The notes below the pieces were generated by a model. That model saw nothing but the letters and a program-made list of their open reading frames with translations. It had not been told where the DNA came from and searched no databases. A DNA stretch of 25,791 nt from a virus: positions 1 to 25,791 of the IMG/VR virus record IMGVR_UViG_3300044946_000138. One strand, given 5' to 3'. How positions within the stretch are numbered: the first letter of the stretch is position 1; every line of letters begins with the position of its first letter. Made by a program: the position numbers and the translations under genes. Shown here one piece after another: positions 2,375 through 25,791 of the stretch.

Positions 2375-2620
2375 TTATTTCAACCAGTTAAATATCATAT
2401 TGATTACAAGAGCTCCTATAATAGTAACTCCTATTCTTTCTAAATATTTAAATTCAACCGCTATCATCTCAAATCGCCCATTTATCTTTTCGAACATCAG
2501 ATTTAAGTCAAGTTCTGGTTCAGCTGCCTTTGATAAAGTCTCTGCCTCAAATAAAGCCTGCTCTTCTGTATAGCCTGCTTCTAGCGCTTGTTTATAAGTT
2601 TGTAGTGTGTCAATTCTCAT
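2375..2620 (-). CDS. CCDC90/DUF1640-like coiled-coil membrane protein, 81 aa
   Basis: A strong ribosome site (GAGGAGG) precedes ATG 2620. The N-terminus MRIDTLQTYKQALEAGYTEE and the following helix have the pattern of the DUF1640/CCDC90-like family (IDTL.xYK..xxAGYTE.QA). A charged coiled coil follows, with one C-terminal TM segment (about residues 60-78, IGVTIIGALVINMIF). The 78-aa paralogue lies just upstream in the same unit and the SPFH gene 20 bases downstream. These proteins form TM-anchored helical bundles; no biochemical role is established for the phage versions. Confidence 0.78.
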   Translation of the reverse strand: MRIDTLQTYKQALEAGYTEEQALFEAETLSKAAEPELDLNLMFEKINGRFEMIAVEFKYLERIGVTIIGALVINMIFNWLK

Positions 2621-2808: not shown

Positions 2809-3045
2809 TTATTCCCATCCAAATCTTTTTCCAATCTTAGGCAGAACAAATGCAATCAAAAATACGCCGGCTATTTCCCAGGTGAAGAATATTTTCAAAT
2901 CATTTTCCAGGATTTTTAAATCTTTTGTAGTTACAACACTATCAAAAGAAGCATTTAGTGAATCTACAGCAATTACGGCCTGTTTTTCGGTATACCCGGC
3001 AGCTAAATAATCTTTATAAACTTTCAGCGTATCTATGTGACTCAT
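2809..3045 (-). CDS. CCDC90/DUF1640-like coiled-coil membrane protein, 78 aa
   Basis: AAAGGAG lies 6 bases before ATG 3045. The N-terminus MSHIDTLKVYKDYLAAGYTE is nearly the same as that of the protein at 15420-15725 (MSHIDTLKVYEEYRAAGFDE) and close to that at 2375-2620. Residues 20-50 are a charged helix, and about 53-70 a TM segment (WEIAGVFLIAFVLPKIG). First gene of the membrane module that includes the SPFH protein. Function unknown; it is one of four paralogues in the window. Confidence 0.78.
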   Translation of the reverse strand: MSHIDTLKVYKDYLAAGYTEKQAVIAVDSLNASFDSVVTTKDLKILENDLKIFFTWEIAGVFLIAFVLPKIGKRFGWE

Positions 3046-4390: not shown

Positions 4391-4483
4391 ATGGCACCCC
4401 TTAAAAATATTTTCATTTATTTGTTGACAATCGTTTTAAGCGTGTGCATAATGGGGCCATGTGTAACTTACAGGAGCAATTGA
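4391..4483 (+). CDS. Possible small membrane protein, 30 aa
   Basis: One base after the TAG of the 66-aa gene, ATG 4391 opens a frame with a strong hydrophobic segment (NIFIYLLTIVLSVCIMGPC) and a short polar tail. It has no ribosome site and would need coupling. The same DNA contains a consensus promoter (4424-4452), which may be the real reason for this spacer. I list it as possible only. Confidence 0.35.
   Translation: MAPLKNIFIYLLTIVLSVCIMGPCVTYRSN
4424..4452 (+). promoter_or_regulatory. Sigma70-like promoter for the exonuclease-RecT unit
   Basis: Perfect TTGACA (4424-4429), 17-base spacer and CATAAT (4447-4452, 5 of 6). The expected transcript start near 4459 gives a leader of about 27 bases holding AGGAG before ATG 4486. 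It allows the recombination genes to be expressed independently of the RHH-controlled promoter. Confidence 0.7.
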
Positions 4484-4485
4484 AG

Positions 4486-5253
4486 ATGAGACCGACAGGC
4501 ATATACAATAATTTAGATATAGACGAATATCATGCATCCGAGGGCATTAGCTCTAGCGGCATATCATTGATATTGGATTGTCCTAAACGATATTTTCATG
4601 AATATATGGCTAATAATATAGATATTGAGGATTCTAGGAGACAAAATGACAAGTTCAAGCTCGGGCGAGCCGTTCATATGTTAGTATTGGAGCCCGAAAA
4701 GTTTCATGAAAAATTCTATGTTATGATGAATGATGTAGATTTAAGGACTAAAGTCGGCAAAGAAGCTTACGCAGACGCCGAGAATAGCGCTAAAGGCCGC
4801 GACATCATCAGAGCTAACGATTACAGGGAAATCGCAAAGATTTCTGAATCTGTTCTTTCTCACTCACTTTGGAAAACGTTTGATAATCGTTTAGTCGAAC
4901 AATCCATATTTTGGGATGCTGGTCTATTCAATACGCGCTTGCGCTCTAGGCCGGACGTCTACAATGACAAAATAATTATTGATATTAAGACAACCGACTC
5001 CATCAAAGCGTTTTCTAATTCAATTTATCAGTATGGATATCACAGACAAGCGGCAATGCAAATAGATGGGCTTCGCAATTTTGATGAAAAGGAACGCACA
5101 TTTGCATTCTTCGTAGTAGAAAAGAAAGAGCCGTATCTAACTGCCTGCTTTGTTTTAGATGAAGCCTCTATAGAACAGGGCAGACGTGAATATCATGATG
5201 GGGCCGTTATTTATAGCGAATGTCTTCAAAATAAAGAATGGCCCGGCTATTAG
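4486..5253 (+). CDS. RecE-like PD-(D/E)XK exonuclease (DUF3799 type), 255 aa
   Basis: I start at ATG 4486, with AGGAG 9 bases upstream, rather than at the open ATG 4444, which lies in the promoter. Features of RecE-type phage exonucleases are visible: an N-terminal helix with SSSGISLILDCPKRYFHEY (about 22-40), GRAVHMLVLEP (60-70), then the catalytic core RPDV (Asp157), IIIDIKTTDS (Asp166-x-Lys168) and YGYHRQAAMQ (Tyr185, Gln188). The family degrades one strand of double-stranded ends to expose single strands for annealing. RecT is encoded 230 bases downstream, the usual partner. Length agrees with the catalytic domain of RecE. Confidence 0.88.
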   Translation: MRPTGIYNNLDIDEYHASEGISSSGISLILDCPKRYFHEYMANNIDIEDSRRQNDKFKLGRAVHMLVLEPEKFHEKFYVMMNDVDLRTKVGKEAYADAENSAKGRDIIRANDYREIAKISESVLSHSLWKTFDNRLVEQSIFWDAGLFNTRLRSRPDVYNDKIIIDIKTTDSIKAFSNSIYQYGYHRQAAMQIDGLRNFDEKERTFAFFVVEKKEPYLTACFVLDEASIEQGRREYHDGAVIYSECLQNKEWPGY

Positions 5254-5491: not shown

Positions 5492-6359
5492 TACAGAAAC
5501 CGAAACAAGACCCGACACAAGAATCATGCCAACCAATCCAGGATTCATGCAGGTAGGCTCTATTGAAGCCGCTATGCAATGCGCAGAGCTTATCGCAAAG
5601 TCTTCGTTCTGCCCTAAAGGAATGGTAGGAAAGCCCGGCGATGTTGTAATAGCCCTTCAAATGGGCCAGGAACTCGGTTTAAAGCCTATGCAAGCGCTCC
5701 AGAACATCGCGGTTATCAATGGCCGCCCTTCTCTCTGGGGCGACGCTATGCTCGCCGTATGCCGTCAGAGTCCTGATTTTGAATACATCAAGGAAGAGTA
5801 TTTAGAAGAGACTAAAACTTATGTTTGTCGTGTTAAGCGAAAATACGAGCCGGAGTTCATGCAAACATTTTCTGAGGCCGATGCTAAACTGGCTCGCCTA
5901 TGGGGCAAGGAAGGTCCCTGGACTCAATACCCCCGCCGAATGCTTCAGTTTAGAGCCAGAGGCTTTTGTTTGAGAGATGCCTACCCTGACCTTCTTCGCG
6001 GGATTATCACCTGCGAAGAGGCAGAGGATATGCCAAAAGAGCGCGTAGACTATAGCCGAAAAGTTGGTAATATTTATGATAGCAAAATATCGGATGGTGA
6101 AATCATTACTCCACATCAGTTAGATGTCTTAAAGGATTTAATGCAAGATGCGGACTCTAAGCCAGAAAATATTTGCAGCCATCTTAAAATAGAGTATCTT
6201 GAGATGATGCCGCTCAGTAAATGGGAAGGCGTTTGTAGGCTTCTACAACAAAAGATTGCTAAAAAACGCAAAATAGACTTGCCAATTAATCAAGTTTATG
6301 AGGCGAAAAAAGTTTCGGAAGCTGTAGCAGAGTTTGATAGAGAATATGAGGAGGGTTGA
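5484..6359 (+). CDS. recT: RecT-family single-strand annealing protein, 291 aa
   Basis: GAGGAG precedes ATG 5484. The core has the pattern of phage RecT proteins: GKPGDVVIALQMGQELGL, KPMQALQNIAVINGRPSLWG and the characteristic LWGKEGPWTQYPRRMLQFRA, then GFCLRDAYPDLLRGI. Residues about 30-190 form the annealing domain; the C-terminal third (TPHQLDVLKDLMQDA onward) is a helical module with a basic patch (QQKIAKKRKIDL). RecT coats single strands made by its partner exonuclease and promotes annealing and strand invasion at phage DNA ends. Fourth gene of the early plus-strand unit; its stop is adjacent to the next start. Confidence 0.92.
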   Translation: MSNTETETRPDTRIMPTNPGFMQVGSIEAAMQCAELIAKSSFCPKGMVGKPGDVVIALQMGQELGLKPMQALQNIAVINGRPSLWGDAMLAVCRQSPDFEYIKEEYLEETKTYVCRVKRKYEPEFMQTFSEADAKLARLWGKEGPWTQYPRRMLQFRARGFCLRDAYPDLLRGIITCEEAEDMPKERVDYSRKVGNIYDSKISDGEIITPHQLDVLKDLMQDADSKPENICSHLKIEYLEMMPLSKWEGVCRLLQQKIAKKRKIDLPINQVYEAKKVSEAVAEFDREYEEG

Positions 6360-6361
6360 AA

Positions 6362-6610
6362 ATGAAAGAAACAGATATTTTATCTAAATATATAGAGGCG
6401 TTAACCAATCATATGCCAGATAATCAGGCACAATTATTTGCCAGGTCGTGGGCTGAGGCTTCAGAGCCTCATCCCAGCTTGGCCACAAAACACGAGCTAG
6501 AATTGGCCATAGAGCGGATAAACAGTACCGTAAGTAAATTATCTTTAGGCGTATATTCCATTTTTCTAGTTTTGATTATTGAAATAATAAAGGAATGGAT
6601 ATTCAAGTGA
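6362..6610 (+). CDS. CCDC90/DUF1640-like coiled-coil membrane protein, 82 aa
   Basis: I use ATG 6362, which has AGGAGGG 6 bases upstream inside the end of recT; TTG 6356 is also open. The order is as in the family: N-terminal helix (YIEALTNHMPDNQAQLFARS), a short linker with SLATKHELELAIERI, then one C-terminal TM segment (about 60-80, LGVYSIFLVLIIEII) and a final IFK. A third paralogue of the proteins at 2375 and 2809, here inside the recombination operon. Stop 6608-6610. Confidence 0.75.
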   Translation: MKETDILSKYIEALTNHMPDNQAQLFARSWAEASEPHPSLATKHELELAIERINSTVSKLSLGVYSIFLVLIIEIIKEWIFK

Positions 6611-15419: not shown

Positions 15420-15725
15420 ATGTCGCATATTGATACTTTGAAAGTATATGAAGAATATAGAGCCGCTGGTTTTGATGAAAAAACAGCGAAAGAACTTACT
15501 AATGTCCTAGAAAGTTCTTTTACGAAAATCCATAAATCATTGTTCGAAGAATTAAAACAATGGTTAAAAGAAGCCAAAGAAGATTTTGCCAGCCAAAAAT
15601 TAATTTCTATTTTAGGCGGATTAATCTTGCTGGCCTTAACAACCTCTATAGGTTTGCTGTGGAATCTAACCGTTGATTTCCAAATTTTAAAAAGTTGCGG
15701 AATAGTACTAAAAGAAAGTAAGTAG
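15420..15725 (+). CDS. CCDC90/DUF1640-like coiled-coil membrane protein, 101 aa (moron gene)
   Basis: I start at ATG 15420 because the N-terminus MSHIDTLKVYEEYRAAGFDE then matches the 78-aa paralogue start to start (MSHIDTLKVYKDYLAAGYTE); upstream in-frame ATGs add no similarity. Residues 20-60 are a charged coiled coil (KSLFEELKQWLKEAKEDFAS), and about 65-82 a TM segment (LISILGGLILLALTTSIGLLW). It is transcribed from its own promoter against the late operon, between the ejection and spike genes, the pattern of a moron. Function unknown, but such inserts often serve the lysogen or exclude other phages. Confidence 0.75.
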   Translation: MSHIDTLKVYEEYRAAGFDEKTAKELTNVLESSFTKIHKSLFEELKQWLKEAKEDFASQKLISILGGLILLALTTSIGLLWNLTVDFQILKSCGIVLKESK

Positions 15726-22714: not shown

Positions 22715-24028
22715 TTACAGCGGGAATAACATGGCCATACCATATTCAGGAACCTGCACAGAACCATGAATACAATCATGGATCATTCCTCTTACGTTTT
22801 GGCCAAACAGCGAACCATAATATTGACGTAAAGATACGCCAGTATCTGGATCGACAGAATTACCCGTTGGATAGGGAGTTAAGGCCGGTAATTGTGGCAT
22901 TGCTAGATACAATGAATTACCGCCATTAATCATGCCTACTCTACAATTTGGAACTACCTGTAGTTGCATCCCAACTGCTAAAGCATTGTTGATGTTTTGG
23001 TTGCTGGTTGCCAACGCTTGTAGGGGTGGGTTGAAAGTAAAGGTCACTGCGCCAGCGCCGTTTGAGGCCGCAGTAACGGTCGACTGGATTTGTACGGGCA
23101 CTGAGCTTACTAATTGGCCTATAAAGGTTAAGTATCTCATGTCGGGTTGTCCAGCTACTCCGTCAATGAATTGCATTCGATCGCCTTGCAGAATTGCATT
23201 AGGATCGGCGGCAACTGCACCACCCGAAGTAACCGTAATGGAGTTGATGGAGCCGTCTGGAAGAGGGGCTCCGATTGCCGAGATGGTTAATGTACGGCCA
23301 GCCCAACCGTTGGCTTGATTACCGATATTCCCAGCGATGTGCACAGGCAACAGATTTGATTGGTACCATTCGCAACCAGAGAAAGCGCCTACTTGCCACG
23401 ACAATGCCTCTTTGTCGTTTCTATCCAATGCAAATTGGTTGAGACCAGAGCCCACGATTTGAGCAACCGCGATGTCGGATAAATATCCTTTTACATCATA
23501 AGTTACTGAACCATAGTTTCTGAATAATGCCAAAGCCTGGGCTAACTGGTTATAGGTATTAATGGGCGTTAAGCCATCTCCATAAAACCGATAAGGTCCC
23601 GGTTGAAAGAATGCAGCAGTTGTTGAGCTTGCTGGAACGATTTGGAAATCGCAATTGCTCGCAACAACGGCTTCAATTTTCGCGCCCATTTCTGCCATAG
23701 CAGCGGTACCGAATCTTTCCATATATTCGCGAACATTGAATAAAAATTGTTGATCGCTGAATGCATAGGAGGTTGAGATTTGATTCCGCACGGAGAGTGC
23801 TTGGACACGCTGATTAGCTGGCTGGAAATTCGCAACCAAGCTGGCGGTCGTCGTAAATCGGGGTGGCAAATCAAAGGTAACGGTGTCGCCTAAGTTTGCA
23901 GTCATTCTATCAAAATCTCTAAATTTGGCATTAGAAGTAGACACAAAACAGCATAAGTTTTGTAGATATGCCAAATTGGACATTTGATAGGTTTGGACGG
24001 TTTGTAATATCTGTGCTGGAACGGCCAT
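22715..24028 (-). CDS. Major capsid (coat) protein, P22 gp5-like, 437 aa
   Basis: GAGGAGG lies about 8 bases before ATG 24028. Length is very close to P22 coat (430 aa). Visible features are an N-arm and helix (MAVPAQILQTVQTYQMSNLA, residues 1-20), DTVTFDLPPRF (48-58), a long helix with EYMERFGTAAMAEMGAKIEA (101-120), and the YLSDIAVAQIVGSGLNQFALD (182-202) to VGAFSGCEWYQSNLLPVHIAG (213-233) segment, which parallels the P22 GFD.....P.L motif. The middle (about 240-350) is probably the inserted domain of the HK97 fold. The scaffold gene precedes it and a terminator-like hairpin follows, both usual for a coat gene. Some divergence in the C-terminal third. Confidence 0.85.
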   Translation of the reverse strand: MAVPAQILQTVQTYQMSNLAYLQNLCCFVSTSNAKFRDFDRMTANLGDTVTFDLPPRFTTTASLVANFQPANQRVQALSVRNQISTSYAFSDQQFLFNVREYMERFGTAAMAEMGAKIEAVVASNCDFQIVPASSTTAAFFQPGPYRFYGDGLTPINTYNQLAQALALFRNYGSVTYDVKGYLSDIAVAQIVGSGLNQFALDRNDKEALSWQVGAFSGCEWYQSNLLPVHIAGNIGNQANGWAGRTLTISAIGAPLPDGSINSITVTSGGAVAADPNAILQGDRMQFIDGVAGQPDMRYLTFIGQLVSSVPVQIQSTVTAASNGAGAVTFTFNPPLQALATSNQNINNALAVGMQLQVVPNCRVGMINGGNSLYLAMPQLPALTPYPTGNSVDPDTGVSLRQYYGSLFGQNVRGMIHDCIHGSVQVPEYGMAMLFPL

Positions 24029-24079
24029 GTTAAACGCCTCCTCATCAAGTTATGAAAGGACGTTGTGTGGCCGCTAGCT

Positions 24080-24802
24080 TTACCTAGTAGGTCTGAGCCA
24101 AGAAGCGTTTTTAAAATCCGCTACGCTCATTTTTCCACTATCAACGCCATTGTTTTGAGACGATTTAAGGCGTGATAGAGGCGGTTGTGCCGCAACATTT
24201 CCCTGGACAGCCTGCTGGTTTTGAGAGATGGATAACGCTAGTTTTTTCATCTCTTTTTCAGCAAGTGCAGGATGGGTTTGCGCGAGTGTTTGCAAGGATG
24301 CGAGCTTCATAGGGTTTTTAGCCAGCTCATACATAATGGCTGGGGTATTTTCCTCTTGAGCCGCTAGGTAAACGAGTTGCGGGAAAGCTTGGGGGACAAA
24401 ATCGCCCATTACTTCTTCGAAGTCGTCAAAAAAATCCTTTCCTTGAGACATCTTAGAACGATATTTATCAACAAGTTGATGCGCCTCGTCGAGTTGCTTT
24501 TGTTGCATCTCGTCTTGGTAGCGCTTAGCTTGTTCTTCCTCGTGTTTCTTAGCCTCGGCCATGAGACGGTTAACGACTCTATCCTCAATAGAGGCAAGGT
24601 CGTCTCGTACTTCCGGCTTAGAGCCTTGGCTCCGTAACAAAGCAAGTTCTTCAGCATGCCGTGCTTCGAGTTCCCTTCGGACATTCTCGGCCGCTATTCC
24701 CTTTTCGCGTCTCACAATTTCGTTTACACGACTAGCAGGCACAGTCTTTTCGGGCTCTGCCTGTAAATCTTGCTCACTCTTGACAACAGCTTCTTCATCC
24801 AT
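24080..24802 (-). CDS. Scaffolding protein, P22 gp8-like, 240 aa
   Basis: A charged, almost wholly helical protein: TVPASRVNEIVRREKGIAAE and NVRRELEARHAEELALLRSQ (20-60), a long coiled coil (IEDRVVNRLMAEAKKHEEEQ and beyond, 71-120), then a more mixed part and a C-terminal ending with DFKNASWLRPTR. Phage scaffolds have this layout, with a basic C-terminal coat-binding segment. It lies directly before the coat gene, as in P22. GGGGGAA and GCGGA are upstream. It is the first gene of this late strand segment, with 214 bases of regulatory DNA before it. Confidence 0.82.
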   Translation of the reverse strand: MDEEAVVKSEQDLQAEPEKTVPASRVNEIVRREKGIAAENVRRELEARHAEELALLRSQGSKPEVRDDLASIEDRVVNRLMAEAKKHEEEQAKRYQDEMQQKQLDEAHQLVDKYRSKMSQGKDFFDDFEEVMGDFVPQAFPQLVYLAAQEENTPAIMYELAKNPMKLASLQTLAQTHPALAEKEMKKLALSISQNQQAVQGNVAAQPPLSRLKSSQNNGVDSGKMSVADFKNASWLRPTR

Positions 24803-24973: not shown

Positions 24974-25016
24974 ATGGGTATGTTAAAATGTGGTATGAGC
25001 AGATTTAGGAGTACTT

Positions 25017-25244
25017 ATGACCAGAATTGAGACAGTTAAATTATATGGCGATGGCAATGGCGCTGGCTCTGGCCATGGCTATGGCGATGGCTATGGCTAT
25101 GGCTATGGCGATGGCTATGGCTATGGCTGTAGCTCTGGCTCTGGCTCTGGCTATGGCTATGGCGATGGCTCTGGCCATGGCGATGGTGATGGCGATGGCC
25201 ATGGCGATGGTGATGGCTCTGGCTATGACGATGGCTCTGGTTAA
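25017..25244 (+). CDS. Gly-X low-complexity protein with CCDC90-like first ten residues, 75 aa
   Basis: AGGAG precedes ATG 25017. The first ten residues, MTRIETVKLY, follow the start of the small coiled-coil family here (MSHIDTLKVY, MRIDTLQTY). Then the protein becomes a regular series of Gly-X dipeptides, X being Tyr, Asp, Ser or His (for example GYGDGYGYGYGDGYGYG), up to TAA 25242-25244. Similar Gly-rich hexanucleotide-repeat proteins are known in phages, with no established role to my knowledge. The family helix and TM segment are absent, so this looks like a paralogue whose body was replaced by a repeat array. It could be a disordered protein or a non-functional relic. Confidence 0.55.
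   Translation: MTRIETVKLYGDGNGAGSGHGYGDGYGYGYGDGYGYGCSSGSGSGYGYGDGSGHGDGDGDGHGDGDGSGYDDGSG
25047..25241 (+). repeat. Hexanucleotide repeat (GGCNNN)n, about 32 units
   Basis: 195 bases of GGC-headed hexamers, with GGCTAT, GGCGAT, GGCTCT and GGCCAT the common units and a few single-base variants (GGTGAT, AGCTCT, GACGAT). Any change by whole units keeps all frames. In the plus strand the three frames read Gly-X, Met-Ala/Leu-Ala and Trp-X, all open over most of the array. A further part unit (GGCGATGGCTGTGGCT) occurs at 25590-25605, after the DUF6948-type gene. Confidence 0.9.
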
Positions 25245-25278: not shown

Positions 25279-25575
25279 ATGGCAAATGAAGACATGAGAT
25301 ATGTAATTGTTAGAACTTATTCAGCAGGAGTTTTTGCTGGTAATTTCGAGTCAAGAAATGAGAAGGAAGTTGTACTGAGAAATGCTCGTAGACTTTGGAG
25401 ATGGGCTGGAGCGGCTTCCCTGTCACAATTAGCAATGGAGGGAGTTAAGAAACCAGATGAATGTAAATTTCCTTGTGAAGTAGACAAGGTTCTTCTGCTG
25501 GATACCATTGAAATCTTAGATACTACTTTAGTAGCAGAAAATTCTATTAAAGATGTTGCAATATGGTCAGCATAG
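25279..25575 (+). CDS. DUF6948-type phage protein, 98 aa
   Basis: I start at ATG 25279 (AGGA 8 bases upstream); ATG 25270 and a longer frame running back through the repeat to 25027 are open. From residue 7 the sequence is RYVIVRTYSAGVFAGNFESR, then NEKEVVLRNARRLWRWAGAA, SLSQLAMEGVKKPDECKFPC and KVLLLDTIEILD, ending IWSA. This is the well-conserved small phage family I recall as DUF6948 (VRTYSAGV..G......GKEV.L..ARR.W.W.GA.SL). Its function is not known. It follows the Gly-X repeat gene and is convergent with the gene at the right edge. Confidence 0.8.
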   Translation: MANEDMRYVIVRTYSAGVFAGNFESRNEKEVVLRNARRLWRWAGAASLSQLAMEGVKKPDECKFPCEVDKVLLLDTIEILDTTLVAENSIKDVAIWSA

Positions 25576-25642
25576 TCGTCTATAACGACGGCGATGGCTG
25601 TGGCTTATGTGCATACCCTATTATTCAGAAGGCTTTTGGGTT

Positions 25643-25791
25643 TTAATATTTTAGTAATTCATCTTCAATAGAACAAATATTAAAGTCTAGTATGTCTCGA
25701 GTTAGTTCTACCATTCTGGCCGTAGAAAGATCATTCGGATACATGTGGCTTGTCCAGTAGAATCTCATTAAAATAAAGGCTTTATTTTCGT
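25643..25791 (-). CDS. Gene cut by the right edge, 3' 48 residues
   Basis: From the edge an open minus-strand frame runs to TAA 25645-25643. The visible part (FILMRFYWTSHMYPNDLSTA, then RMVELTRDILDFNICSIEDE) reads like a normal helical, mixed-charge protein. An internal ATG lies at about residue 8 without a ribosome site, so the gene probably begins outside. Family not recognised; it is not an obvious portal or terminase C-terminus. Confidence 0.5.
   Translation of the reverse strand, partial: ENKAFILMRFYWTSHMYPNDLSTARMVELTRDILDFNICSIEDELLKY

Follow-up and report, generated by a model that had tools for sequence, protein, structure and literature searches.

A probable displaced copy of the DUF6948-associated Gly-X gene in a tailed-phage genome

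How did an open reading frame that starts like a member of a coiled-coil family come to encode almost nothing but Gly-X dipeptides? The question arises in a whole virus record of 25,791 bases, which we refer to in full as the window. The gene set of the window is that of an ordinary tailed phage, with an exonuclease VIII-like gene at 4444-5253 (PHROG 412) and the major head and scaffold proteins at 22715-24802; a megablast search of phage records with the window gave no match. The reading frame itself (25017-25244, plus strand) opens with ATG and encodes 75 residues, the leader MTRIETVKLY and then Gly-X, with a period-6 array filling codons 11-75. An earlier note on this DNA had reported the 75-residue frame, its good ribosome site and its 195-base Gly-X hexanucleotide array, all of which we confirm:

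25017..25244, plus strand: Gly-X ORF, 75 aa, probably a displaced additional copy of the gene that partners DUF6948
25007..25011, plus strand: ribosome site AGGAG, 5 bases before the ATG of the 25017 ORF, as read from the sequence
25017..25046, plus strand: leader MTRIETVKLY, like MSHIDTLKVY
25047..25241, plus strand: hexanucleotide array GGC-NNT, 32.5 units, two of them broken, 195 bases

Tandem Repeats Finder placed the array at 25044-25240 (period 6, 32.8 copies, 80% matches). The dipeptide rule is broken twice, by AGC-TCT (Ser-Ser) and by GAC-GAT (Asp-Asp).

The gene that matters most for the question is absent from the earlier note and lies beside the array, 34 bases from the 25017 ORF. 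A second, much shorter Gly-X frame overlaps its end:

25279..25575, plus strand: DUF6948 (PF22253) gene, 98 aa, predicted Sm/LSm-like fold
25563..25646, plus strand: Gly-X ORF MVSIVVYNDGDGCGLCAYPIIQKAFGF in the canonical slot, shrunken; its ATG lies 13 bases before the DUF6948 stop codon ends (-13)

The product of 25279-25575 is a clear member of the Pfam family (E 1.6e-30), and the association with an array extends far beyond this phage: in the 220 loci that we collected in all, 204 DUF6948 copies have a Gly-X array downstream. When loci were picked by DUF6948 only, from viral contigs and the genomes of very diverse bacteria, the array lay directly downstream in 53 of 62; the rest comprise two loci with degenerate arrays (L127 and L199), six cut by contig ends and one false match (L215). 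A Gly-X ORF thus stands behind DUF6948 in 55 of the 55 usable loci, the two degenerate ones included. Loci picked by array DNA alone mostly have DUF6948 directly upstream. Across 210 cassettes the Gly-X start is in frame without exception (210/210) and overlaps the DUF6948 stop in 95%, and in 130 it stands exactly 13 bases before the end of that stop (-13). Phages and prophages carry the cassette in hosts as distant from one another as Bacteroidales, Clostridia, Acidobacteria and Chlamydia-like bacteria. Pfam assigns no function to DUF6948, and the Gly-X partner falls outside the Pfam model. Literature searches on the cassette found nothing, no paper naming DUF6948 was found in the literature searched, and a paper on Pectobacterium phages leaves glycine unmentioned. 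As far as we have found, DUF6948 and Gly-X form a common, conserved phage gene pair that is seemingly undescribed.

The 25017 ORF adjoins DUF6948 on the same strand and fits the Gly-X class, having a short leader, at least 15 Gly-X units and an X that is mostly Tyr, Asp or Ser. It lacks the class-typical overlap with the DUF6948 stop and sits upstream of that gene; because this lies outside the usual slot, we call it a displaced copy. Arrays upstream of DUF6948 occur in two loci only, this window and L044. The latter is a tandem repeat of the DUF6948/Gly-X pair, and the window array is the only upstream array that has no full-length partner in the usual slot. That slot is kept in the window at exactly -13, shrunk to about three repeats (25563-25646). 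Since it is present but shrunken, the reported gene is best read as an extra upstream copy with its own ribosome site; lying upstream with no full-length slot partner, the array would have needed a start of its own.

A short leader followed by an array is the normal form of the class. The leaders are varied: we counted 112 distinct ones, many of them unrelated, an outcome that the earlier note had named as refuting a hybrid origin. The N-termini are exchangeable, ranging from short leaders to domains of 57-63 residues and, in L038, a DUF7666 domain. In L038 the Gly-X array lies in frame behind DUF7666, which sets a precedent for the attachment of an array to an unrelated gene. L010, L040, L115, L123, L067 and L119 each contain several Gly-X genes in tandem, with one leader in common and differing arrays, and in L216-L218 a strong hairpin resembling an intrinsic terminator (CCCCCGAAAGGGGG, then T-rich) directly follows the Gly-X stop. 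A further group of loci (L225-L304, e.g. L227:1483-1938) carries a C-terminal domain, WHH.LTGSC..GR..F, that always stands behind a Gly-X array. The array precedes it in frame in 79 of the 80 loci picked by the domain, the other being cut by a contig end, and no array-free relative of this "TGSC" domain was found among the 80 loci. The in-frame domain in those 79 loci argues for translation through the array. The domain was modelled with a pLDDT of 94 and had no clear PDB match.

In length and unit order the arrays change much faster than the genes beside them, with leader and ends held constant, and they do so within a narrow alphabet. The leader MSKLIKPE(K/R)Y is common to seven Pectobacterium phages and one Dickeya phage, while the length of their Gly-X genes varies between 162 and 270 bases in increments of six. 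Between Ymer and Amona the flanks show 0 mismatches in 2979 bases, whereas the Gly-X genes measure 222 and 204 bases and differ in unit order. Unit order in most sister-phage pairs is no closer than in shuffled arrays; a unit-level distance that left gap extension free carried no information, and a different distance was used for this order test. A clear internal duplication distinguishes L260 from L258. Ser, Tyr and Asp account for 92% of X (S 34, Y 32, D 26, N 3%), and these residue classes are kept in every GC range. The third base of the X codon (unit base 6) tracks the genome, with a GC fraction of 0.23 in low-GC loci versus 0.77 in high-GC loci. The two bases that change the amino acid vary between the units of an array (0.97 and 1.01 bits), whereas the synonymous bases are nearly constant (0.07 and 0.18 bits). 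GGC encodes 80% of array Gly in AT-rich (low-GC) loci, compared with 23% in the genes there, a bias that protein-level selection alone does not predict. The birth and death of units, combined with selection on composition, may explain the fixed synonymous bases. An Rfam search gave sub-threshold matches of the repeat type only. We also considered whether the array's +1 frame (Ala-Met/Leu) might be fused to DUF6948 by frameshifting or read-through; that frame is not conserved, NNC units in other phages giving Ala-Ser/Thr, and what keeps it open is simply that GGC-NNT units offer no stop codon in it.

A structural model of DUF6948 (pLDDT 95) predicted an Sm/LSm-like fold: nearly all of its best 50 PDB matches are Sm/LSm or snRNP chains, although these matches are borderline (best E 4.6e-3; VIA Z 7.3, below 8). 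Among the PDB matches listed for this model, DUF6948 being the only protein of the locus that was modelled, there is no RAMP. The predicted fold suggests RNA or protein binding. In Sm/LSm proteins and Hfq, an Sm-like fold is paired with a Gly-rich low-complexity segment or glycine-rich tails. The DUF6948 fold is predicted to be alike; as far as a predicted fold allows the comparison, the cassette differs in that its Gly-rich segment is a separate, fast-changing gene.

On balance, we consider the 25017 ORF to be probably a displaced extra Gly-X partner, encoding a translated low-complexity protein that would work with the RNA-binding-like DUF6948. The product would alternate Gly/Ser spacers with Tyr and Asp. 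FUS and hnRNP proteins contain prion-like low-complexity domains that are Gly-rich with Tyr, Ser, Asp, Asn and Phe. Compared by composition, the Gly-X protein resembles them in combining Gly/Ser/Asn spacers with aromatic residues and differs from them in its strict dipeptide period and near absence of Arg and Gln. Translational coupling may set the ratio of Gly-X to DUF6948, which, with its predicted Sm-like fold, would bind RNA or protein while the Gly-X partner self-associates around it. Gain and loss of units would scramble the array; selection on its composition would preserve the three residue types, and the synonymous bases, being neutral, would become homogenised. That the leader is like the coiled-coil family would reflect either convergence or a start captured when the array left its slot. 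This explanation is weakened by the borderline strength of the Sm-like matches, by synonymous bases more constant than the amino-acid-changing ones, by the retention of GGC in AT-rich loci and by the position of the reported gene outside the usual slot.

The earlier note had likened the leader to the starts of two coiled-coil genes of the window and had spoken of four paralogues. Three of these are related, finding each other with phmmer (E 1e-4 to 7e-7); the candidate fourth, at 6356-6610, showed no detectable kinship to the other three in the phmmer comparison:

2375..2620, minus strand: coiled-coil paralogue a, MRIDTLQTY start
2809..3045, minus strand: coiled-coil paralogue b, MSHIDTLKVY start
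15420..15725, plus strand: coiled-coil paralogue c, MSHIDTLKVY start

The family occurs in other phages too, and I-D-T-L is kept in all members seen; where its members have a helical body and a C-terminal membrane segment, the 25017 ORF has the array in codons 11-75. MTRIETVKLY and MSHIDTLKVY share five identical residues and four further conservative pairs, giving a BLOSUM62 score of 26 over residues 2-10. Among column-shuffled gene starts, a fraction of 1.5e-5 scored as high; the chance of the score is 6.3e-5 under a model of Gly-X leaders and 6.5e-4 as the best of the 40 gene starts in the window. When the same procedure as in the earlier note was applied to other contigs, each Gly-X leader being set against the gene starts on the contig that carries it, the likeness ranked first among 94 leaders, the window's own included. 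The claim that the ten-residue starts are alike beyond chance is therefore borne out. Part of the likeness reflects habits of Gly-X leaders, in which residue 4 is hydrophobic in 62% (versus 25% of other gene starts) and of which a quarter end in Tyr. With hydrophobic residue 4 and the final Tyr held fixed, the chance of the score is still 5e-4, and the likeness thus stays unusual, yet by itself it is no evidence of descent. At the DNA level, codons 2-10 match the 15420 gene at 17 of 27 bases, probably about what the protein similarity leads one to expect. The 30 bases upstream of the 25017 ORF match those of the paralogue at 9 of 30, which is chance level; the upstream bases of the true coiled-coil paralogues do not match one another either, so the missing upstream match is uninformative.

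These data bear on the possibility that the array, on leaving its slot, acquired its start from a coiled-coil paralogue by recombination and retained ten codons of that gene. Such a capture would account for the similarity beyond chance; the window array is also the sole upstream array without a full-length downstream partner, and the N-terminal modules of the class are exchangeable. The leader, however, departs from the start pattern M-x-x-I-D-T-L-x-x-Y at family-invariant D5 and L7, reading I-E-T-V where the family keeps I-D-T-L, and its hydrophobic residue 4 and final Tyr are class habits. No further Gly-X gene with its pattern turned up in the viral contigs searched, where a DNA pattern of the leader plus Gly gave a single, unrelated match, and no Gly-X arrays were found on contigs of other phages that carry the coiled-coil family. 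We regard capture as possible though doubtful. The hybrid origin suggested earlier is mostly wrong: the statistical reality of the shared start stands, capture of a start is possible and unproven, and invasion by the array is unsupported.

The array might instead act mainly as RNA. VIPR loci contain YNNGG pentanucleotide repeats in a non-coding RNA and a RAMP protein, Vipr, and their guide RNAs (vrRNA) combine a fixed GGY with variable NN (PMC13142463). Like VIPR, the cassette is phage-borne, joins GG-pyrimidine and variable dinucleotides to an RNA-binding-like partner (here a predicted one), and has arrays that are unrelated between close phages (PMC13142463). An array working as VIPR GGY/NN guides do, with variable dinucleotides pairing with a target and DUF6948 binding the RNA, would fit the fixed GGC and sixth base around variable bases 4-5, the retention of GGC in AT-rich genomes, the unit order scrambled between sister phages, the predicted Sm-like partner and the GGY plus hypervariable NN that VIPR arrays share (PMC13142463). 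In contrast to VIPR, the cassette arrays have period 6 rather than 5 and form an ORF with a conserved start geometry (in frame in 210/210 cassettes), and their partner is predicted to be Sm-like rather than a RAMP. TC, TA or GA make up 92% of the variable dinucleotides, too few for arbitrary targets. The arrays are thus neither a pentanucleotide non-coding repeat nor freely variable at NN, and the C-terminal domain behind some of them is in frame. Target searches with a 1-base skip gave no convincing match: the first 11 units of the window array had none in viral contigs, and in 201 genomes one 3-mismatch match only, itself a short tandem repeat, both searches being weak tests. We judge a mainly RNA role unlikely. 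A variant in which DUF6948 binds the array transcript through its GGC..pyrimidine frame, reading a period-6 dinucleotide recognition code that is also translated, seems to us unlikely as well; if it is true, VIPR would have an independent counterpart based on Sm. That TA, TC and GA are closed under reverse complementation was also considered as a sign of a pairing code and set aside, since lineages that use Asn (AA) but lack Phe (TT) break the closure.

Fast unit turnover and the GGC bias could also come from a repeat that is selfish or acts at the DNA level, for instance as a recombination hot spot, and that codes for protein only incidentally. Against this, the sixth base follows genome GC, the residue classes are kept, and start codons and overlap are conserved; we consider such a repeat improbable. 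Invasion of a coiled-coil gene by the array behind its tenth codon, as the earlier note had suggested, is very improbable: the start likeness and the DUF7666 case, where an array follows a real gene, speak for it, but the leader reads I-E-T-V in place of the family's I-D-T-L, no gene remnant (codons 11 onward) is present in the 34 bases between array and DUF6948, capsid relatives have no coiled-coil gene at the equivalent place beside the capsid genes, and the array is integral to the class (79/80 C-terminal-domain loci, the other cut by a contig end).

For this window, the hybrid-gene account is replaced by one of a displaced copy and a shrunken copy. For the family as a whole, the strict start-stop geometry and the wide host spread indicate that the cassette probably does something useful. 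Its Gly-X partner, changing very fast behind a fixed leader and within a fixed residue alphabet, resembles a diversifying tool.
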